From NCBI GenBank assembly GCA_947624355.1, contig CANQKI010000013.1, positions 1 to 37,191 of the forward strand: a DNA stretch of 37,191 nt. The letters run 5' to 3'. Source of the stretch: an uncultured Clostridia bacterium (GTDB lineage: Bacteria > Bacillota > Clostridia > Christensenellales > Aristaeellaceae). The position numbers were made by a program, and so were the translations under genes. The notes below the pieces were generated by a model. That model searched no databases. It had not been told where the DNA came from and saw nothing but the letters and a program-made list of their open reading frames with translations. Below, in pieces: positions 3,500 through 35,419 of the stretch. How positions within the stretch are numbered: the stretch's first letter is position 1; each line of letters begins with the position of its first letter.

Positions 3500-4015
3500 A
3501 TGGAGGTTGTCGAGGGCCCCGATGACACCCGTGAAGAACTGTTTGAAGCCCTGGTTAAGCAGTATCAGGGCTTGCTGCTGAAAATGTGCTATGTCTGGCT
3601 CTGCGATTTTGACCAGGCCCGGGACGCGGTGCAGGAAACCTTTCTCAAGGCCTACCGTTCCCGGGAAATCCTGAATCATGCGGACAGCGAAAAGGCCTGG
3701 CTCCTCACCGTGGCCCGGAACACCTGCCGGGATATGAAGCGCTCCGCCTGGTGGCGGCACACGGATAGGCGGCTGACCCCGGACGATCTGCCCGAGGCCG
3801 CCGCCCCCGCCGCCCAGCGGGACCTGGATCTGACCGCGGCCATCCTGGCCCTGCCGGACAAGCTCAAGGACGTCATCCTGCTCTATTACTACGAAAACTT
3901 ATCGGTTACGGAAATCGCGCAGATTCTGAATATCGCGCAGCCTTCCGTATCCAACCGCCTGACACGCGCGCGGCTCCGGCTGCGGGCCATTCTGGAAAAG
4001 GGGGAAGAAGCATGA
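3500..4015 (+). CDS. ECF-type RNA polymerase sigma factor, 171 aa
   Basis: Region 2 spans about residues 15-85, with the core-binding pattern DFDQARDAVQETFLKAYR and the tryptophan/arginine-rich WLLTVARNTCRDMKR. Region 4 spans about 110-165, with LPDKLKDVILLYYYENLSVTEIAQIL and the recognition helix PSVSNRLTRARLRLR. The start is set at ATG 3500 (MEVVEG) because GAAGGGAGGTG precedes it by 8 bases; the 15 extra codons upstream in the same frame have no such site. The stop overlaps the ATG of the next gene (ATGA), the usual arrangement for a sigma factor and its membrane-bound regulator. Such sigma factors commonly control their own operon, but I could not identify a convincing ECF promoter upstream. 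Confidence 0.9.
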   Translation: MEVVEGPDDTREELFEALVKQYQGLLLKMCYVWLCDFDQARDAVQETFLKAYRSREILNHADSEKAWLLTVARNTCRDMKRSAWWRHTDRRLTPDDLPEAAAPAAQRDLDLTAAILALPDKLKDVILLYYYENLSVTEIAQILNIAQPSVSNRLTRARLRLRAILEKGEEA

Positions 4016-5820
4016 CGGATCAGGAAATCCGCGAAAAGGTAAAGCACGCATTGGACACTTCGCTTTCCGGCCTGCCCGCCGATCCCTTTCTGGCCCGTCG
4101 CGTGATCAACACGGCGGAGGCACAGCCGGAGGGAAAAGGAGAAAAGAAAGTGATCCGTAAATTATCCATAGGCCTGATTCTGGCGCTGGTGCTGGTGATG
4201 GTATCCACCACCGCCCTGGCCCTGACCAACTGGGACTCCATCCGTACCTATTTTGAATCCGTCCGCGCCATGGCTTCCTCCGGGGAGCTGGACCGCTGGT
4301 CGGACGAAGACAAGCTGAAGCTCTTTGACGCCATGCACGCCGCCGGGCTGACCGACGAAAACGACGAACGGGTGATTACCGCCGCCAACACCGCCCTGCC
4401 CCTGGAAGAACGCGCCCAGGCGGCGGACGCTTTCATCAGCGAACGGTACGGGGCCGATTATTTCAACAGCCACACCATCGAGGAAATCGAGTTCCCCGAG
4501 GAAAACCGCACGGAGGAAGAGCAAAAGGAATTTGACGCGTGGGACGAGGCTTACCGCGCCGCCGAAAACGAGGCCGCGAAGGAAAACCCCCTCATGCAGG
4601 AAACCGAAATCTATAAGCACGCCGTAAGCTTCCTGACCGAAGAGGGTTACTTCCCGCCCGAGCTCATCCGCCAGGCGGAAATCACCGGGGAATTTTCCGA
4701 AACCGGGGCCGACGTGCCGGGCGGGCACGCGGCCGACGTCTGGATCGTCACCATGTCCATTGACAAGGAAACGTATCTGGCCGGCATGCGCAGCATGAAC
4801 GCAAAGCTCATGGAGGAAGGAAAATACGATGGCACCGACAGCGTGTTCGATTACGGCGCGTATGAGAAGGACGGCAAGCGCTGCTTTACGTTCTATCTGG
4901 ATAAGTATGGCAACTATCTGGGGGCCTATGATCAAAACGCTGCCGAGGTGACCGAGGAAAAGGCGACGGAACTGGCCTATGAGGCCATGCGCGTCCGCCT
5001 GGGCAAAAGCAAAGAAGATCTGGCCAAATACACTCTCAAAGTGGGCTCCGGCGAAAGCGGCGATTGGGATCAGGCCCTGGGCATGTTCCGGGCGGATTAT
5101 TATTTCAGCTGGAAGGACGGCGATGCGACGAAATTCTTTGTGGAAATTGACGCCAAGACGGGGACCATCCTTGAGGTCATTGACTGGGAAGAATCCGAAC
5201 GGATGCGGGAACAGGGATTTGCCTGGCGGGATGAACTGAGGGAGGTTTACGGCAAGGCGGGGCTGATCTGCACAAACCCCTACGATCACGAAAGATACGG
5301 CCTTTACGACGAAAACGGCAATTACTTCTGGGATTGGTCCCTGGAAAAGCGGGCGGCTTTCTCCCAAAGCGCCATTCCCCTCTTTGAACAGTTCAAGCTG
5401 GATCATCCCGGGCTGGAACAGTATCTGCAGGACGTGGCGGCAGGAAAATATGCGTTTAGCGTGTACGACAACATTTTCATCGTTACGGATCATGTGTACG
5501 GCCTGCCTGATGAAAAAGCCATCTCCCAGGAGGAAGCCTTCCGGATTGCGTACGACGAGGCCCTTCGCCAGGGCGCCCGGGCCAGCGACCTGGCGGACAA
5601 CACCGCCCGGGGTGCGCATACGTTCTATTACGACGTGACCGACCCGGAGCATCCCCTTTGGAAGGTGCACATCAACCTCCTCTTTGGAGACAGCGACGGC
5701 AGCCATGTGCTCCTGCCAACCGACCCTGAGGGTTACTTTGTCAAAATCGACGCCTATACGGGCGAAATCGTGGAGGTCATTACCCGCACCGTGGATACGC
5801 CTATGCGGGATCTGGTCTGA
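4012..5820 (+). CDS. Membrane-anchored probable anti-sigma partner with two PepSY-like repeats, 602 aa
   Basis: About 50 cytoplasmic residues (MTDQEIREKVKHALD...) are followed by one membrane span (about 51-71) and a long, acidic extracellular part of some 530 residues. The short N-terminal region and the four-base overlap with the sigma gene fit an anti-sigma factor, although no zinc-binding HxxxCxxC motif is present. Two PepSY-like units occur in the outer part: about residues 311-393, ending FFVEIDAKTGTILEVIDW, and about 502-596, ending YFVKIDAYTGEIVEVITR. PepSY domains are often inhibitory or sensory and sit next to proteases or cell-wall enzymes. The region 80-300 is rich in E, D and A and I recognise nothing in it. 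Release of the sigma factor after ligand binding or proteolysis is a reasonable but unproven model. The stop codon is followed within five bases by a hairpin-array element. Confidence 0.75.
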   Translation: MTDQEIREKVKHALDTSLSGLPADPFLARRVINTAEAQPEGKGEKKVIRKLSIGLILALVLVMVSTTALALTNWDSIRTYFESVRAMASSGELDRWSDEDKLKLFDAMHAAGLTDENDERVITAANTALPLEERAQAADAFISERYGADYFNSHTIEEIEFPEENRTEEEQKEFDAWDEAYRAAENEAAKENPLMQETEIYKHAVSFLTEEGYFPPELIRQAEITGEFSETGADVPGGHAADVWIVTMSIDKETYLAGMRSMNAKLMEEGKYDGTDSVFDYGAYEKDGKRCFTFYLDKYGNYLGAYDQNAAEVTEEKATELAYEAMRVRLGKSKEDLAKYTLKVGSGESGDWDQALGMFRADYYFSWKDGDATKFFVEIDAKTGTILEVIDWEESERMREQGFAWRDELREVYGKAGLICTNPYDHERYGLYDENGNYFWDWSLEKRAAFSQSAIPLFEQFKLDHPGLEQYLQDVAAGKYAFSVYDNIFIVTDHVYGLPDEKAISQEEAFRIAYDEALRQGARASDLADNTARGAHTFYYDVTDPEHPLWKVHINLLFGDSDGSHVLLPTDPEGYFVKIDAYTGEIVEVITRTVDTPMRDLV

Positions 5821-5825
5821 CCCCC

Positions 5826-6058
5826 GTGTGTCGAAAACAAGTTTTCGACACACGAGCGAGGCAAGAACGCAAAAGCGTTCTTGCCTCGACTCCATCATTT
5901 TCCTGTGATGCTTCGCATCACGGCCGGAAAATGATATAGGAAGGAGTCATTCTGACTCCTCCTCCCGCCGGCAAAGCCGGCGGTGCGGATTGAAAATGAA
6001 GGGGCTGCGGCCCCTTCATGCATCCCTAAGGATTAGATGTGGTTTTTTTGACAATCTG
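5826..6058 (+). repeat. Hairpin-array element, copy 1 (strand given = sense of the gene it follows)
   Basis: Six successive hairpins fill the space between two convergent genes. H1 is 5826-5838/5841-5853 (13 bp). H2 is 5857-5870/5875-5888 (14 bp, AAAA loop). H3 is 5894-5903/5926-5935 with an inner stem 5905-5911/5915-5921. H4 is 5943-5949/5953-5959. H5 is CCGCCGGC/GCCGGCGG (5965-5983). H6 is TGAAGGGGC/GCCCCTTCA (5997-6018). A spacer with CATCCC and a run of seven T (6043-6049), then ACAATCTG, close the element. The same order of modules recurs at 7835-8035 and 35179-35419. No gene is present here. The T-run after H6 may end transcription of the sigma operon. Confidence 0.85.
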
Positions 6059-6067
6059 CCAACGGAT

Positions 6068-7633
6068 TCAATTGATTTTCGTGCCGCAATTGGGGCAGAA
6101 ATTCACGGTGTTTCCTTCCGGAACGACATATCCGCAATTGGGGCAGGACTGGGCTTTGGGCGCTTCCGGACGGGCGGTGCCGCAATTGGGACAGAAATTG
6201 GATGCAACGCCCTCCAGGCCGCAGGAGGGGCAGGTCCAGCTGGCGTCGTTCTCCTCAGCAGGCGCGACGGGAACGTCGGGCGCTGCCGCGGCGGCAGTGT
6301 CATCGGACACAGCGATCTGGTAAACGATATACTGCCGGTCCGCATTACGGGCCAGGATCACCGTGCCGTCGGCGGACACCTCCACATCGTACATATAGCG
6401 GATCGAACTGCTGAAGGGAACCAATTCGTTGCCGAAGAGATCGACCACGCCGATTTCGCCGTCAGCATTCTGCGCAACGAAGCAGCGCGCAGCAGTACCA
6501 TAATTTATCTGCACATCGGCATAATGCTCGGGCAGCTCGCCAATCGCGCCGCTGAGCACAACCACGCCGCCCATCAGATCCTTCAAAGTGGCAAACGGGC
6601 CCCGCACGGAAGCGGCGCTGTACGCATACACGGGAGGGCAGGTCAACTCGCCCCGGGTATTATAGAAAGCAATTTTGCCGTCCTGGCTGACGGCCTGATA
6701 CCCGCCGGGAAAAGCGGTGTCGTAAGCGCTTATCTCGTCACATACGCAGGGAATCACCGTATTTCCCTGCATATCGATGATACCGTATTTTTTATCCATC
6801 CGGACCTTGACGTAATCATTGTTGATAATGCTGCAGGAATCATACGGCTGCTGGGCGGCGAAGAGCAGGTTTCCCTGAAGATCATAGAAAAAGTTGTTCT
6901 TTTCAAAGACGCTGGTTTCCACTTCCTCCTTCGTCAGGGTGCAGCCCGGCGCAAAGGCCACCTGGCCGGTGCCGCAGTGGACGTTGTTGTAGTCATATTC
7001 GCTTGAAGTGCGTTCGGAAAGCACCCGCACCGAAAAATCCGGGCTGAAAACCTTTGTATTATCGGTTCCGTTGCTGGAACGCATGAGCAGATAGCTGCCC
7101 CTGACGCTGCAATAGTAATTGTTTGTGTATTCGCTGCGGGCCAGGGTGCCCACCTTCGTTCCGTTATAGTAAAAATCCGTGGAATCGATGATGTAGTACG
7201 TTTTTGTATTTGTGTTGTAATTGGTGGAATAGAAATCGTTATAATCTTCCGTTCCGGTCGGCATGAGGCGGTATCCCACCAGCCAGTTCGTATTTTCCGA
7301 ATCCAGGTACTCCGTATGATCGTATTCACAGGGAACGAGAATCTGGCCCGTCCCGGCGTCAATCATGCCGTCTTTGCCGTTCTGAGTAACCCTGCATACG
7401 TCCCCTCTGACTGTCAAATCCTGATATACATCGGAAAGAACGTTGCCGTTCCTGTCAACGAGATAATACCCCGATGAATCGCTGACGACAATGTTCCCGG
7501 TTGATTCGACCATCTGCGCATATTTCCAATCATGCGCTGCGGTGCTGATGAGAGAATCGGCAGCGGCGGGCTGGACCGTGACAGCCATCAAAAGGCTTAG
7601 AACAGCGATGCATGCAAACAGTTTTTTCATCAT
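6068..7633 (-). CDS. Secreted WG-repeat protein with two C-terminal zinc ribbons, 521 aa
   Basis: The protein starts MMKKLFACIAVLSLLMAVTV and has a signal peptide cut near AAAD (about residue 25). The body contains WG/KWG-type repeats, each a short beta hairpin of the form G(x)IDxxGxxVxP: examples are GYYLVDRNGNVLS near the N-terminus, KYGIIDMQGNTVIP in the middle and EIGVVDLFGNELVP later. The tail (465-521) carries eight cysteines in two CPxC...CPNC ribbons (C468, C471, C481, C484; C497, C500, C513, C516). Zinc ribbons are normally cytoplasmic, so their presence on a protein with a signal peptide is odd. ATG at 7633 follows AAAGGAG by 8-9 bases. The coding sequence is visibly richer in A/T and in Asn/Tyr/Thr than its neighbours, which could indicate transfer. 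It stands alone with its own promoter. Confidence 0.85.
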   Translation of the reverse strand: MMKKLFACIAVLSLLMAVTVQPAAADSLISTAAHDWKYAQMVESTGNIVVSDSSGYYLVDRNGNVLSDVYQDLTVRGDVCRVTQNGKDGMIDAGTGQILVPCEYDHTEYLDSENTNWLVGYRLMPTGTEDYNDFYSTNYNTNTKTYYIIDSTDFYYNGTKVGTLARSEYTNNYYCSVRGSYLLMRSSNGTDNTKVFSPDFSVRVLSERTSSEYDYNNVHCGTGQVAFAPGCTLTKEEVETSVFEKNNFFYDLQGNLLFAAQQPYDSCSIINNDYVKVRMDKKYGIIDMQGNTVIPCVCDEISAYDTAFPGGYQAVSQDGKIAFYNTRGELTCPPVYAYSAASVRGPFATLKDLMGGVVVLSGAIGELPEHYADVQINYGTAARCFVAQNADGEIGVVDLFGNELVPFSSSIRYMYDVEVSADGTVILARNADRQYIVYQIAVSDDTAAAAAPDVPVAPAEENDASWTCPSCGLEGVASNFCPNCGTARPEAPKAQSCPNCGYVVPEGNTVNFCPNCGTKIN

Positions 7634-7670
7634 TTATTCTTCTCCTTTCCCCTGGGCACACCGTTATTTT

Positions 7671-7708
7671 CCGTATGGATCATTCCCGTAAATACGGTTT
7701 GTATACGG
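7671..7708. promoter_or_regulatory. Nested inverted repeat downstream of the WG-gene promoter (candidate operator)
   Basis: The outer arms CCGTAT (7671-7676) and ATACGG (7703-7708) enclose an inner palindrome CCGTAAATACGG (7686-7697). The block starts at about the predicted transcription start of the WG-repeat gene, so it could be an operator or a hairpin in the 5' leader. Confidence 0.4.
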
Positions 7709-7712
7709 ATTA

Positions 7713-7741
7713 AGTGTAACATACATCTTGTTTATTGTAAA
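7713..7741 (-). promoter_or_regulatory. Sigma-A promoter of the WG-repeat gene
   Basis: On the minus strand TTTACA (7741-7736) and TACACT (7718-7713) are separated by 17 bp, with TG in the extended -10 position. The surrounding 30 bases are AT-rich, unlike the rest of the window. Confidence 0.75.
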
Positions 7742-7834
7742 GTTTTTTCTGGGAAAAGCGGGAAATGGCTCCGGTGCGGAAAAAAGAGAAGATAGCAAAC
7801 GCTGCAGGAACGCAAATGTGTTCCTGCAACGTCA
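7742..7834. other. Intergenic stretch with one isolated hairpin
   Basis: Between the WG promoter and hairpin-array copy 2 there is no gene. It contains one inverted repeat, GCAGGAAC (7804-7811) and GTTCCTGC (7820-7827), that resembles the end hairpin of copy 2 (the CAGGA/TCCTG core is shared). It may be a remnant of another element. Confidence 0.4.
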
Positions 7835-8035
7835 CAGCTTGTTAAAAAAACAGTATCTCGATTTGGGGATGTATGAAGGGGCCGCAGCCCCTTCATTTGA
7901 AATCCGCAGAACCGGCTTTGCCGGTTCGAGGAGAAGTCAGGATGACTTCTACCTCTATCATTTTCTGGCCGTGATGCGTAGCATCACAGGAAAATGATGC
8001 AGCCGATGCAGGATCGCTTTCGCGTTCCTGCATCG
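7835..8035 (-). repeat. Hairpin-array element, copy 2 (strand given = sense of the gene it follows)
   Basis: This is the same modular series as copy 1, lying just after the stop codon of the PBP gene. In the sense of that gene the order is: end hairpin CGATGCAGGA/TCCTGCATCG (8004-8035), the ATCATTTTC/GAAAATGAT hairpin with inner GTGATGC/GCATCAC stem (7957-7998), GAAGTCA/TGACTTC (7933-7949), GAACCGGC/GCCGGTTC (7909-7927), TGAAGGGGC/GCCCCTTCA (7874-7895), then CATCCCC and a run of seven T followed by AACAAGCTG (the A-run at 7844-7850 on the + strand). It has one end hairpin where copies 1 and 3 have two. Confidence 0.85.
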
Positions 8036-8040
8036 CTATT

Positions 8041-10548
8041 TTACTCGCCGGACTGCCAGAAAAGGGACAGGGCGTCGGCGGAACCGTCGTCCTCCTGCTC
8101 CTGCCGATTGCCAAAGAGCATCCCGGTAATATCCTCCCACAGCCTGCGGCCGGAGGACGGCGGCTCGGCCTGGGCAATCTGCACGGCCTGCTTGCCCTCC
8201 AGCAGCACGCCGTTATTGAGCAGGTCGGAATGGATAGGGATGATGCGGTAGGTGTACACCACGCCCACCTGGGCCTTTTTGTCGGTATAGTAGAAGGTTT
8301 CCCCCGCGTTGGAATAGATTTCATTTAAGATGATGCACTCCCCCACGGCGTCCCGCTGGATGCGGTAGAGGCCGGCGTCCTGGGCGGTCATGACCAGAAC
8401 GGGGTTGCCGCCGCTGTTGTGGGTGACATAGAAGGAGGACAGGGCCCGGGGCGCGCTCCAGACGTTGGAATTTTTCGTGGGCCGGTTGGAGGAAAGAAAG
8501 ACCTCGGAATAGGTGTACGCCTTGGGGGTGAGGGAGGTGGCCAGCATGGGCTCCCCCGCCCATTCGATGGATTTCGTGTCGATCTTGAGCCACACCATGC
8601 CGTCCGCCTGGAGGAAGGCGGGCTTTTCCCGGTCGGCATAGTAGGCGCGGAAGAATTTCGTGGCCAAAGCGGCGGTGTAATCGCCCCCGGACACCCAGCT
8701 TTGCAGCTTGTGGTTTTTGTCCGGGTTGTCAAAGCCCATCCAGAAGGCTGTGGAAATTTCGCTGTTGTAGGCGGCCATCCAGATATCCCGGTTGCCGCCG
8801 CCCGTCATGTTCACCGTGCCCGTTTTGCCCGCCACGGGGGTGCCCGCGCCGGAGAGCTTGGCCCCCGTGCCCGAGGCTGTAACGGTTTGCAGCAGGCTGG
8901 TCATGAGGTACGCCGTCTGGGGAGACAGCACCGTTTCCCCCGCCGTTTCATGGCGGTAGAGCACATTGCCCGCGCCGTCCTCGATGCGTTCGATGAAATA
9001 CGGGCTGTAAAAGGTGCCGCCGTTGGCAAAAGGCGCATAGGCGGCAGCCAGCTGCACGGGCGACACGCCGTAGGTCATGGCCCCCAGGGCCAGGGACAGG
9101 TTCCAGTCCCGGTCGTCCAGCTCGATGCCCGTTTTTCCCAGGTAATCCCGGGCGGCGGCCACGCCGATTTTGTTCAGCAGGGACACGGCGGCCACATTCA
9201 GGCTGTTTTTCAGGGCCGTGCGGACGGTGACGTTGCCGTAATAGAGGTTGCCGCTGTTCCGGGGGGAATAATTGCCGAATTTCTGGGGCGTGTCGTTGAG
9301 GACGCTGGCGGTCATGTACCCGTAATTTTCAATGGCCGGGGCGTACACAGCCAAAGGTTTCAGGGACGACCCCGGCTGGCGGCGAATCTGCGTAGCCCGG
9401 TTGAGGCCCCGCTGCACTTCATAGTTGCGGCCCCCCACAATGGCCCGCACGGCCCCGGTATGCACGTCCACGCAGGCCATGGCCCCCTGGGCCTGGGTGC
9501 CGTCGGAGGCGTCGGCGGGAAAATTGTCGGCAGAGAGAAACTGGGTGTCGATGATGTCCTGCTGCTCCGTATCCAGGGCGGTGTAAATATGATAACCGCC
9601 CCCAAGCAGCGTTTCGGCCTGGAGACCCAGCAGCGCCTCGGCCTCGTCCAGCACTGCGTCCACGTACCAGCCGTACTGCCCGGCCCGGGCGGTGTTTTCA
9701 ATGGGCGTCACGTCCTCCGTAAGGGCGGCCCGGTACGCCTCTTCGGACAGCATATCGTTGTCCCGCATGGTGCTGAGAATGTATTCCTGCCGCTCCCGGT
9801 TGGCTTCCGGGTGCAGGTGGGGCGCGTAGGCGGAGGGCGCTTTGATCACGGCGGCCAGCACGGCCCCCTGGGCCACGGTCAGTTCGGAAGCGGACACACC
9901 GAAATAGGCCTTGGCCGCCGCCTCGATGCCGTAAGCCCCACGGCCGAAATAAATGTAATTCAGGTACATTTCCAGAATCTGATCCTTCGTGCATTTTTGC
10001 TCCAGCTGTACGGCCAGGTAAATTTCCTCAAACTTCCGGGCCAGGGTCTTTTGGGCGCTCAGGTGGCTCAGTTTGACCAATTGCTGGGTAATGGTGCTGG
10101 CCCCTTCGGCATATTCGCCGCTGCGGAAATTGGCCGCCACCGCGCCCAGAATGCGGATAGGGTCAAAGCCCGGATGCCGGTAAAAGCGCAGATCCTCGGC
10201 GGCCAGGAAGGCCTGACGGACTTCGACCGGCACGGCGGCCAGGGGCACGCTGATGCGGTCCTGGCTGCTTTGCACTTTGGCTACGAAATCCCCGTTCCGG
10301 TCGTAAATTGCCCCGGTCTGGGGCACATTGACAATTTTCTCGATATCCAGTTTCTGCCAGTTGCCCACGTCAAACGCAAAATAAAAGCCCACCCCGCCCA
10401 GTATCAACAGCACGGCCAGGGAAATCAGCACGTTCCGTTTTGTGTGCCGCCGGGGTTTGCCCTCCAGGCGGCGCAGTTCTTTCGCATCCTCCCGGTCGCT
10501 CCGCCTGTCCATTTTGCCGATTGCCCGGCCCCATGCCCCTTTTCGCAA
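8041..10548 (-). CDS. Class A penicillin-binding protein (glycosyltransferase/transpeptidase), 835 aa
   Basis: This bifunctional enzyme polymerises and cross-links peptidoglycan outside the membrane. A basic cytoplasmic tail (1-38) is followed by a membrane span (about 39-58), a GT51 domain (about 75-250; catalytic Glu118 in AAEDLRFYRHPG, plus EGASTITQQLVK) and a transpeptidase domain (about 360-640) with SSLK near 393, a later SLN, and GKTGT near 573. A C-terminal beta-rich stretch (about 720-810) resembles a fibronectin type III module. The start is a TTG at 10548: AAGGAGG lies 9 bases upstream, whereas the first in-frame ATG at 10512 has no ribosome site. The gene is divergent from the short ftsH and its stop codon abuts hairpin-array copy 2. 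Confidence 0.93.
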   Translation of the reverse strand: MRKGAWGRAIGKMDRRSDREDAKELRRLEGKPRRHTKRNVLISLAVLLILGGVGFYFAFDVGNWQKLDIEKIVNVPQTGAIYDRNGDFVAKVQSSQDRISVPLAAVPVEVRQAFLAAEDLRFYRHPGFDPIRILGAVAANFRSGEYAEGASTITQQLVKLSHLSAQKTLARKFEEIYLAVQLEQKCTKDQILEMYLNYIYFGRGAYGIEAAAKAYFGVSASELTVAQGAVLAAVIKAPSAYAPHLHPEANRERQEYILSTMRDNDMLSEEAYRAALTEDVTPIENTARAGQYGWYVDAVLDEAEALLGLQAETLLGGGYHIYTALDTEQQDIIDTQFLSADNFPADASDGTQAQGAMACVDVHTGAVRAIVGGRNYEVQRGLNRATQIRRQPGSSLKPLAVYAPAIENYGYMTASVLNDTPQKFGNYSPRNSGNLYYGNVTVRTALKNSLNVAAVSLLNKIGVAAARDYLGKTGIELDDRDWNLSLALGAMTYGVSPVQLAAAYAPFANGGTFYSPYFIERIEDGAGNVLYRHETAGETVLSPQTAYLMTSLLQTVTASGTGAKLSGAGTPVAGKTGTVNMTGGGNRDIWMAAYNSEISTAFWMGFDNPDKNHKLQSWVSGGDYTAALATKFFRAYYADREKPAFLQADGMVWLKIDTKSIEWAGEPMLATSLTPKAYTYSEVFLSSNRPTKNSNVWSAPRALSSFYVTHNSGGNPVLVMTAQDAGLYRIQRDAVGECIILNEIYSNAGETFYYTDKKAQVGVVYTYRIIPIHSDLLNNGVLLEGKQAVQIAQAEPPSSGRRLWEDITGMLFGNRQEQEDDGSADALSLFWQSGE

Positions 10549-19264: not shown

Positions 19265-23058
<3,794 letters not shown>

Positions 23059-33845: not shown

Positions 33846-35123
33846 ATGAAGAACAAGCATTTCGGTTTCGGTATGCTGGCAGTCGTCATCGCGTTGGCGA
33901 TGATTTTCACCACCGTGCTGAGCGCGGGGGCGGACAGCGCCACCATCCCCCAGGAAGAAATCGACGCCATCGTGAACACCACCACCGATTCCTCCCAGGT
34001 GACCAGCCCCTTTACGCAGGTGGCCGAAAAGGTGCGCAACAGTGTGGTGGGCGTGAACAACTATGCCGTGCGGAATAATTCCTATTACGGCTTCGGCTTC
34101 GGTTACGGCTACGGTTACGGCAACGGCGCGGGCCAGGAAACCCTGACTGCCACGGGCTCGGGCGTGGTGATTTCCAAGTACGGACATGTGCTGACCAACT
34201 ATCACGTCATTGAGGACGCCACCCGCGTCACCGTCACCATCGCCAACGACGAAAGCGAGCACGAGGCCATTGTGGCCGGGTATGACGAGGACCTGGACGT
34301 GGCCGTGCTGATGGTGCCCGGGCTGGAGCTTGATCCCGTGCCCCTGGGCGACAGCGACCAATTGCAGGTAGGCGAATGGGCCATCGTCATCGGCAATCCC
34401 CTGGGCGAGGAATTTGCCCGCACCATGACGGTGGGCGTGGTTTCGGCCCTGGACCGGGAAGTGACCGATACGGGCTATGACCGCTACGGCCGCCGCACCA
34501 ACATCACCAACACCATGATTCAGGTGGACGCGGCCATCAACTCGGGTAACTCGGGCGGCGGCATGTTCAACGTGCTGGGCCAGCTGCAGGGCATTCCCGC
34601 CCGGAAGTATTCCGCTTCCGGCTACTCTGAAACCACCATTGACAACATCGGCATGTGCATCCCCATCAACGTGGCAAAGCCCCTGATCGAATCGGTGCTG
34701 CAGGCCTATAACGGCTCCACCCCCGGCACCAACACCGCCAGCAACGGCAACGTCCAAAGCCCGCTGCAGGGCAAGCCCCGCCTGGGCGTCACCGGCACCA
34801 CCCTGAATTCCACCGGCAACGGCAAGGTGCCCCTGGGCGCGTTCATCACGGCGGTTGACGCGGGTTCCCCCGCGGAGGCCGGCGGCATGAAGCCCGGCGA
34901 CATCATCGTGGAAGTGGACGGCACCGTGGTTTCCAACATGACTGCCCTGCAGAACAAGCTGAACGGCTACAATGAGGGCGACACCATCACCGTCAAGGTC
35001 TTCCGGGACGAGGGCCTGGCCAAGCAGGTGGATCAGCAATACATCACCCTGAGCGAAATCGGCGAAGGGGAATACATTGACCTGACCATCACCCTCCGTA
35101 TTGTAGACAACCTGAGTATGTAA
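33846..35123 (+). CDS. HtrA/DegP-like serine protease with PDZ domain, 425 aa
   Basis: An exported or membrane-anchored protein-quality-control protease. The N-terminus MKNKHFGFGMLAVVIALAMIFTTVLSAGA is a signal peptide or anchor. The trypsin-like domain has His120 (LTNYHVIED), Asp151 (DEDLDVAVL) and Ser236 (NSGNSGGGMF), so it should be active. A PDZ domain (about 305-405) holds LGAFITAVDAGSPAEAGGMKPGDIIVEVDG. Between the anchor and the protease is a Gly/Tyr/Phe-rich stretch (YYGFGFGYGYGYGNG, about 79-94) encoded by near-repeats of six bases (34085-34125). AAGGAGG precedes the ATG by 8 bases. It stands alone and is closed by a strong terminator. Confidence 0.94.
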   Translation: MKNKHFGFGMLAVVIALAMIFTTVLSAGADSATIPQEEIDAIVNTTTDSSQVTSPFTQVAEKVRNSVVGVNNYAVRNNSYYGFGFGYGYGYGNGAGQETLTATGSGVVISKYGHVLTNYHVIEDATRVTVTIANDESEHEAIVAGYDEDLDVAVLMVPGLELDPVPLGDSDQLQVGEWAIVIGNPLGEEFARTMTVGVVSALDREVTDTGYDRYGRRTNITNTMIQVDAAINSGNSGGGMFNVLGQLQGIPARKYSASGYSETTIDNIGMCIPINVAKPLIESVLQAYNGSTPGTNTASNGNVQSPLQGKPRLGVTGTTLNSTGNGKVPLGAFITAVDAGSPAEAGGMKPGDIIVEVDGTVVSNMTALQNKLNGYNEGDTITVKVFRDEGLAKQVDQQYITLSEIGEGEYIDLTITLRIVDNLSM

Positions 35124-35142
35124 CAACCCAAATATACAAACC

Positions 35143-35183
35143 GCGGCCCGGAAGCGAAACGCTTCCGGGCCGCTCTGCTTTTT
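35143..35183 (+). terminator. Intrinsic terminator after the HtrA gene
   Basis: A perfect 14 bp stem, GCGGCCCGGAAGCG (35143-35156) with CGCTTCCGGGCCGC (35160-35173), AAA loop, followed by TCTGCTTTTT. Its T-run merges with the edge of hairpin-array copy 3. Confidence 0.92.
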
Positions 35184-35419
35184 AAAAATCTTGTCTTTGG
35201 GGATGTTTGAAGGGGTCGCAACCCCTTCATTTTCAATCCGCAGAACCGGCTTTGCCGGTTCGAGGAGGAAAATTTGCGAAGGAGCGTTTACGCTCCGAAA
35301 GAAAATTTTCCTTCCTTGCAGATTTTCTGGCCGTGAGCGTAGCGAGCAAGAAAATCTGTAAGTCAACAAAATGCGATAAATCGCATTTTGTTGATGAGCA
35401 TTGGCTGCGCCAATGCTCA
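35179..35419 (-). repeat. Hairpin-array element, copy 3 (strand given = sense of the gene it follows)
   Basis: In the sense of the DUF975 gene the order is: TGAGCATTGGC/GCCAATGCTCA (35395-35419, the first TGA being the gene's stop codon), TCAACAAAATGCGA/TCGCATTTTGTTGA (35363-35394), CAGATTTTCT/AGAAAATCTG (35319-35358), a nested GGAAAATTT/AAATTTTCC plus GGAGCG/CGCTCC (35267-35311), GAACCGGC/GCCGGTTC (35243-35261), TGAAGGGGT/ACCCCTTCA (35208-35229), then CATCCCC and a short T-run. It is the longest copy. The G-C to A-T pair swap in the last hairpin keeps it perfectly paired. The inner stem of the third module present in copies 1 and 2 is not paired here. Confidence 0.85.

Follow-up and report, generated by a model that had tools for sequence, protein, structure and literature searches.

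REP/BIME elements are mosaic palindromic intergenic units; the SPRITE, BOX and RUP repeats of Streptococcus pneumoniae, also intergenic, are terminator-like or modular and insert into each other. By these descriptions, both resemble the hairpin array described here. The array is intergenic and, like SPRITE, BOX and RUP, terminator-like or modular; like REP/BIME it is mosaic and palindromic. Unlike REP/BIME, it occurs in a genome without a Y1 match and has long target duplicates. Excerpts of PMC4923244 describe IS1272 and TnSha1 of the IS1182 family, which enter stem-loops, often terminators, and partly delete them without duplication. In the parts of PMC5678879 drawn on here, the IS1272-type outcome is named stem-loop replacement, and duplication of the whole stem-loop is drawn as a possible pathway b. 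IS1182 is overrepresented between genes that converge on it, according to excerpts of PMC9208149.

As these excerpts portray IS1272 and TnSha1, the array shares with them the terminal inverted repeats and the choice of stem-loops, often terminators, without sequence consensus. IS1272 and TnSha1 use a DDE-family transposase, whereas the array carries no gene, and no PF13751 transposase lies between its ends. Moreover, IS1272 replaces or partly deletes its stem-loop, while the array and two insertion sequences of the same genus duplicate theirs. With prokaryotic MITEs, as treated in the accessible parts of a review (PMC10969869), the array has in common that it is short, non-coding and intergenic, with terminal repeats, target duplications and a high copy number. 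Unlike MITEs in general, it strings together up to six hairpins in a defined order, and each hairpin has several alleles. The accessible text of this review mentions SPRITE, BOX and RUP, and a word search in it found no IS1182, hairpin or mosaic. Our literature search covered open-access papers (subscription papers and ISfinder were outside its scope) and found no account of the array or of a MITE of the IS1182 family that duplicates stem-loops.

Judging from sequence comparison, we consider it quite probable that the array is a MITE-like non-autonomous transposon located at terminator stem-loops and most likely served by an IS1182-type transposase. Stem-loop duplication, so far drawn as a model, becomes testable through the duplicates reported below. 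They suggest that a non-coding element makes use of duplication at many of its roughly 70 sites and in this way rewrites gene ends while leaving the genes intact.

The array in the window and in the source genome

The window (the whole stretch of DNA analyzed, 37,191 nucleotides) contains three array copies (Table 1). An earlier note had described three elements with a common module order, and each was found at the stated position, give or take a few bases. The shared order is H0-H1-H2-H3-H4-TGCGGATT-H5-CATCCC-T run, which defines an ordered hairpin array, and a MAFFT alignment of the copies showed 70% mean column identity. As corrections to the note's description, copy 2 lacks H0, the first hairpin, and copy 3 has the arm sequences of a different subfamily. 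As claimed, the elements start 0 to 5 bases past a stop codon (measured gaps to the first hairpin in copies 1, 2 and 3: 2, 5 and 0 bases), and the upstream genes are unrelated. They encode a PepSY-domain protein after a sigma-70 factor gene (copy 1), a Transgly/Transpeptidase penicillin-binding protein (PBP; copy 2) and a DUF975 protein (copy 3).

Table 1. Features of the three array copies and of the adjoining stem-loops (window coordinates)
Feature	Position	Strand	Remark
Copy 1, full array H0-H5 with 3' end TTTTTTGACAATCTG	about 5825..6058	+	directly after PepSY gene stop (gene 4012-5820)
Copy 1 H0, CGTGTGTCGAAAAC/GTTTTCGACACACG	5825..5854	+	variant of 5' end hairpin
Copy 1 H1	5857..5888	+	
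Copy 1 H2, ATCATTTTC/GAAAATGAT, GGCCGTGA on other strand	5894..5935	+	
Copy 1 H3, short variable hairpin	5939..5964	+	limits approximate
Copy 1 H4, CCGCCGG-CAAAG-CCGGCGG	5965..5983	+	
Copy 1 spacer TGCGGATT	5984..5991	+	within core pattern
Copy 1 H5, ATGAAGGGG/CCCCTTCAT	5996..6019	+	
Copy 1 right terminal repeat TTTTTTGACAATCTGC	6044..6059	+	1 mismatch vs TTTTTTGACANNCTGA
Copy 2, H1-H5 array without H0	7835..8035	-	5 bases past PBP gene stop (gene ends 8041, - strand)
Stem-loop directly beyond copy 2 3' end	7799..7832	-	
Copy 3, subfamily with CAGATTTTC/GAAAATCTG arms	35180..35416	-	directly after DUF975 gene stop (ends 35417, - strand); 3' limit approximate
Stem-loop beyond copy 3 3' end	35143..35173	.	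read by eye

The stem-loop beyond copy 2 is possibly a displaced terminator. The one beyond copy 3 is located between the array and a convergent trypsin/PDZ protease gene (33846-35123). When positions 5700-8300 were scanned with a terminator consensus, the gene strand of copies 1 and 2 showed no terminator-like site. A search of the whole window against Rfam at gathering thresholds gave 0 matches.

When folded as RNA, copy 1 reached -131.8 kcal/mol vs -69.9 (sd 4.4) for shuffled sequences (z -14.2); copy 3, folded as DNA, gave a z of -10.8 against shuffles. The fold of copy 1 included a pairing of TGCGGATT with the 3' end that, by eye, is broken in the commoner 3' ends. In the source assembly, a draft of 2,809,251 bases in 176 contigs, the core TGCGGATTNNAAATGAAGGGG matched 73 times with up to 3 mismatches and 72 times with up to 2, and the reversed pattern 0 times. 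The folding of copies 1 and 3 and the core count against the reversed control show that the array is not due to chance. The three copies of the earlier note thus became about 70, and the search for further copies in the whole genome and in relatives that it had proposed, run here as pattern search and BLAST, found more of them. Per-copy counts below are based on 69 of the 72 copies with up to 2 mismatches, extracted with flanks; those on C22, C62 and C89 were missed by the regular expression and are absent from the counts, as is the 3-mismatch match on C118.

By eye, the intact consensus begins with H0 (TCAGGGTGTC(A/G)AAAAACAAG..), H1 (CGATGCAGG..), H2 (ATCATTTTC/GAAAATGAT) and H3 and continues with H4 (e.g., GAACCGGCAAAGCCGGTTC), TGCGGATT, H5 (ATGAAGGGG/CCCCTTCAT), GCATCCCC and TTTTTTGACAGACTGA. 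The standard array measures approximately 200-400 bases and is made up of hairpins; it is short, non-coding and multi-copy, as expected of a MITE. Some copies have longer modules, either within H2 or ahead of H4. Long extra modules (TTTCGCCCCGCGCTACTCC.., ACTCTCAATTCGGCATAGTCG.., CCAAGGGAGGCCCG..) were seen in or between array hairpins at L098, L130, L135 and L102 (C27, C40) and at several L2xx loci. We also observed solo H0-like palindromes of approximately 33 bases at a gene end, with the rest of the array absent (L225, C2: about 22983-23015; L220, C54: about 1012). Two contig ends, L223 (C104) and L125 (C19), carry nearly the same flanking hairpin and therefore probably flank one and the same array insertion.

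Array ends and flanking stem-loops

Intact copies are bounded by terminal inverted repeats, TCAGGGTGTCAAAAAA on the left, which is the outer arm of H0, and TTTTTTGACAGACTGA on the right, with imperfect middle bases. The end pattern matched 50 times with at most 1 mismatch (inner H0 arms are counted among these matches), and the control 0 times. The 3' end was located in 56 of the 69 copies, H0 in 34, and both ends in 27.

We compared the left and right flanks of the two-ended copies and used 702 mismatched cross-pairs as a control (99th percentile 19, maximum 22). Flank matches exceeded the 99th percentile in 11 of the 27 copies and the 99.9th percentile in 9; the other 16 had no flank duplicate above the control. 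All 11 duplicates, with lengths of 10-30 bases, lie within 5 bases of both array ends, 4 of them in contact with both. Their identities include 29/29 (C114), 25/25 (C45:3611), 18/18 (C27:23536) and 14/14 (C29:21379). By eye, 8 comprise a whole stem-loop and the other 3 a part of one. When H0 was not recognized, a class that includes window copy 1 with its variant H0, a duplicate above the control was detected in 1 of 19 copies. Window copies 1 and 2 were tested for flank duplicates, and none was found.

The array 3' end meets the foot of a stem-loop with a stem score of at least 7 in 19 of 56 source copies, vs 2.1% of mononucleotide shuffles, and with a score of at least 6 in 32 of 56, vs 6.7%. 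Thus, 37 of the 56 ends fall short of score 7 and 24 of score 6. At least 5 T residues in the 10 bases after the stem were present in 13 of the 19 copies scoring at least 7. The flanking stems differ in sequence among copies, indicating a stem-loop target without sequence consensus. Among the matches listed in other genomes, 74 core sites provided 36 copies with a located 3' end and enough flank; 26 of these 36 adjoin a stem scoring at least 7, vs 2.4% of shuffles. Four of six automatically delimited two-ended copies among these matches exceeded a small control of 30 cross-pairs. The duplicates of three of the four lie within 2 bases of both ends; that of L256 does not. At L298 and L307, two copies each of the flanking hairpin are 206 and 208 bases apart.

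Target site duplication, a property of MITEs, is thus present in part of the array copies. IS1272-like stem-loop replacement without duplication is not what these copies display, and copies without a duplicate say nothing either way. We propose that the array, with its ends TCAGGGTGTCAAAAAA and TTTTTTGACAGACTGA, would be joined to the base of a stem-loop, which often is a gene's intrinsic terminator, by a transposase that acts in trans and most likely belongs to the IS1182 (DDE) family. Repair would then duplicate the stem-loop, in full or in part, so that it flanks the array left and right. Many copies may later lose this left duplicate together with the spacer, and in some cases H0 as well, which would bring the first hairpin beside the stop codon.

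Candidate mobilizers and distribution among genomes

One match of the end pattern in the source genome (C37:3075) follows the remains of a DDE_Tnp_1_6 (PF13751) transposase, of which a C-terminal part is left (61 residues searched). By eye, this remnant is followed by an imperfect stem-loop, and its end, CTTTGTTGACAGGCTGA, is identical to the array right end at 15 of 17 positions. It is the sole PF13751 match in the source assembly, in which no intact IS1182-family gene was found. PF13751 occurs separately from arrays in 8 of 29 genus genomes, including the source remnant, and PF05598 was present in 5 of 13 genomes (source, G026, G032 and two with transposases that lack array-like ends). Genus genome G030 and G334, the genome behind a named Clostridia MAG contig (L315), share one PF13751 match with identical coordinates, which suggests that the source organism belongs to the Clostridia of a gut or rumen group. 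Two PF13751 elements of the genus could be delimited at both ends, while the other loci were incomplete or had other surroundings. The insertion sequence in G026 has the ends TCAGACCATCAACAAA and TTTGTTGACGGGTTGA and a perfect 31-base stem-loop duplicate, AGTCGCCCTTTTGACGTTCAAAAGGGCGACT; that in G032 has a perfect 22-base stem-loop duplicate, AGCCTTGCATTTTTGCAAGGCT, and a transposase frame interrupted near its start. Identity between G026 and array ends is moderate, 12/17 on the right and 11/16 on the left. Because insertion sequences of the IS1182 family in the genus combine similar ends with stem-loop duplicates, an IS1182-type transposase is the likely mobilizer.

The source genome may also hold an unassembled insertion sequence of this type. 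By eye, contig C43 starts (L154, C43:1-140) with a right end like that of the IS1182-type remnant. H3 of an array copy follows immediately, a layout that entry of an insertion sequence at the base of this hairpin would produce. The contig beginning inside the right end may reflect a multi-copy insertion sequence that was not assembled.

Alternatively, the array could be a MITE with the same targeting that is served by a different, unrecognized transposase, its likeness to IS1182 being a convergence on stem-loop targets. This would agree with the moderate identity of the G026 ends and with the lack of a PF13751 match in 10 of 12 carrier genomes examined, including the high-copy genomes G201 and G324. 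Two DUF772 transposase genes in carrier genomes also count as a point for this alternative; as mobilizers of the array we rejected them, since by eye their ends are unlike those of the array. In the loci examined (part of the sites near locus starts was ignored), no autonomous element with array ends was seen beyond the G026 insertion sequence. Against a different transposase stand the array-like end of the source remnant and the tendency of draft assemblies to break at repeats, by which missing insertion-sequence copies are to be expected. We therefore regard this alternative as unlikely and favor an IS1182-type enzyme, which would move the array.

The PBP gene beside copy 2 provided a site for comparison, as it is present in 26 of 29 genus genomes, including the source. 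Within 600 bases past the PBP stop, the array pattern was found in 0 of 25 relatives and in the source genome alone, in a search that a strongly diverged array could escape. By eye, the source PBP ends where those of the relatives end, showing that the gene itself was not cut. The absence of the array at this site in the 25 relatives shows that it is not part of the conserved 3' end of the PBP gene.

BLAST with the copy 2 core gave matches in 12 of 13 genus genomes (including the source), whereas 8 genomes from other families gave none. The exact core pattern was present in 3 of 297 genomes of the order: the source (68), G201 of another family (50) and G045 of a third family (1). Carriers among the matches listed include Candidatus Faecaligallichristensenella faecipullorum and rumen or gut Clostridia metagenome-assembled genomes (MAGs). 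By eye, the other carriers largely keep the hairpin order and differ in arm sequences. Matches in Flavobacteriaceae, Duodenibacillus, Singulisphaera, Lyngbya, Pantanalinema, Verrucomicrobiia and Desmonostoc look like chance, as the surrounding array is lacking, and these seven rows were excluded from the orientation, duplicate and stem counts in other genomes. In many of the MAG contigs DVJW and CALWKN among the matches listed (e.g., L240, L264, L269, L302), the core lies near a contig end, which would fit assembly breaks caused by near-identical copies.

Hairpin alleles and placement beside genes

Hairpin pairing was analyzed in the 37 of 69 copies that fit the standard-module pattern, with allele classes that we defined from the copy listing. 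In H4 the two arms are exactly complementary in 35 of 37 copies (5 arm alleles), as are those of H3 in 36 of 37 (4 alleles). The outer 10 pairs of H1 are complementary in 36 of 37 copies (8 alleles), and the arms of the longer H2 apex in 20 of 21. In H4, 99.6% of the pairs are canonical, vs 79.9% after shuffling of the right arms. Inner H1 pairs are partly lost, with one position being T-T in 9 of 36 copies.

The 37 copies represent 34 distinct allele combinations. Significant association (p<=0.001, 1000 shuffles) was detected for 2 of 15 module pairs, namely clamp-H2, which is one hairpin, and the neighbors H3-H4. Alleles of different hairpins are thus little associated between copies, at the limited power of 37 copies. 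By eye, H2 or H4 arms are hybrid in a few of the copies with inserts, so that exchange would not always proceed hairpin by hairpin. A tentative and rather doubtful reading is that the array is a mobile 3' end, the hairpins of which are independently exchangeable cassettes with both arms swapped together by structure-directed conversion or selection. Pairing and order, not sequence, would then be inherited, and genes would gain combinatorial 3' structures against the stop codon. The nearly perfectly paired alleles mixed across copies form a natural data set on two questions, whether recombination is guided by DNA or RNA structure and whether such structure is under selection.

Genes around the copies were called with a simple script based on codon usage, and individual calls may therefore be in error. 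The nearest upstream gene is on the same strand in 46 of the 69 source copies and on the opposite strand in 17, with none called in 6 (binomial p 0.0003); when restricted to genes within 420 bases, the counts are 41 vs 16. At the 74 sites among the matches listed in other genomes, the counts are 36 same, 8 opposite and 30 none (p 2.5e-5). The earlier note had the elements always in the same orientation to the gene; this stands as a bias and not as a rule, with 17 of 63 source copies being opposite. It had set two outcomes against its own reading, an absence of further copies and random orientation. Instead, more copies and a biased orientation were found.

A first hairpin was found in 40 of 41 same-strand copies, in 33 of 40 at most 7 bases from the stop codon. 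Among native gene ends, 90 of 290 have a hairpin, which starts within 7 bases of the stop in 12 of 90 (median 20 bases). When a T run was required, terminator-like hairpins were present at 60 of 291 ends, 7 of 60 within 7 bases (median 21.5). We therefore rejected the position of native terminators as the sole explanation of the 0-7-base gap. Copies with duplicates show longer gaps of 14 (C14) and 40 bases (C114) and gaps of 5 (C45:3611) and 6 bases (C29). Since these gaps are mixed, later loss on the left side as the origin of the stop-codon abutment is a suggestion only. Insertion may be oriented. The orientation bias and the tight abutment are real, and the mobile-element reading explains them only partly.

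Both speak for a resident 3' UTR element with a regulatory or mRNA-protecting role, kept by selection after genes and spread by recombination rather than transposition, and the compensatory variation that preserves stem pairing also fits such an element. However, duplicates at both ends of 11 of the 27 two-ended copies, the PBP 3' ends without an array pattern in 25 of 25 relatives, the 17 copies with an oppositely oriented upstream gene and the patchy spread between families make this explanation very unlikely. A 3' UTR function as such, the first proposal of the earlier note, is possible. Even further from the data is a REP/BIME-type origin with a Y1 (RAYT) transposase as mobilizer. The palindromic, intergenic, mosaic, high-copy array and Y1_Tnp matches in 4 of 18 genomes searched (three weak; one weak match in the high-copy carrier G324) can be cited for it. 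It is nevertheless extremely improbable, given no Y1_Tnp match in the source genome or high-copy G201 and a Y1 mechanism from which neither terminal inverted repeats nor long target duplicates would be expected. With it falls the Y1/RAYT suggestion of the earlier note, the other proposal of which, a mobile palindromic element near terminators, is supported by the copy number, the stem-loop duplicates at both ends of part of the copies, the presence or absence at the PBP site and the insertion sequences of the genus. Finally, by eye, some copies follow tRNA- or tmRNA-like sequences and not protein genes (L092, C7:36689; L099, C28:26944; L105, C43:20658).
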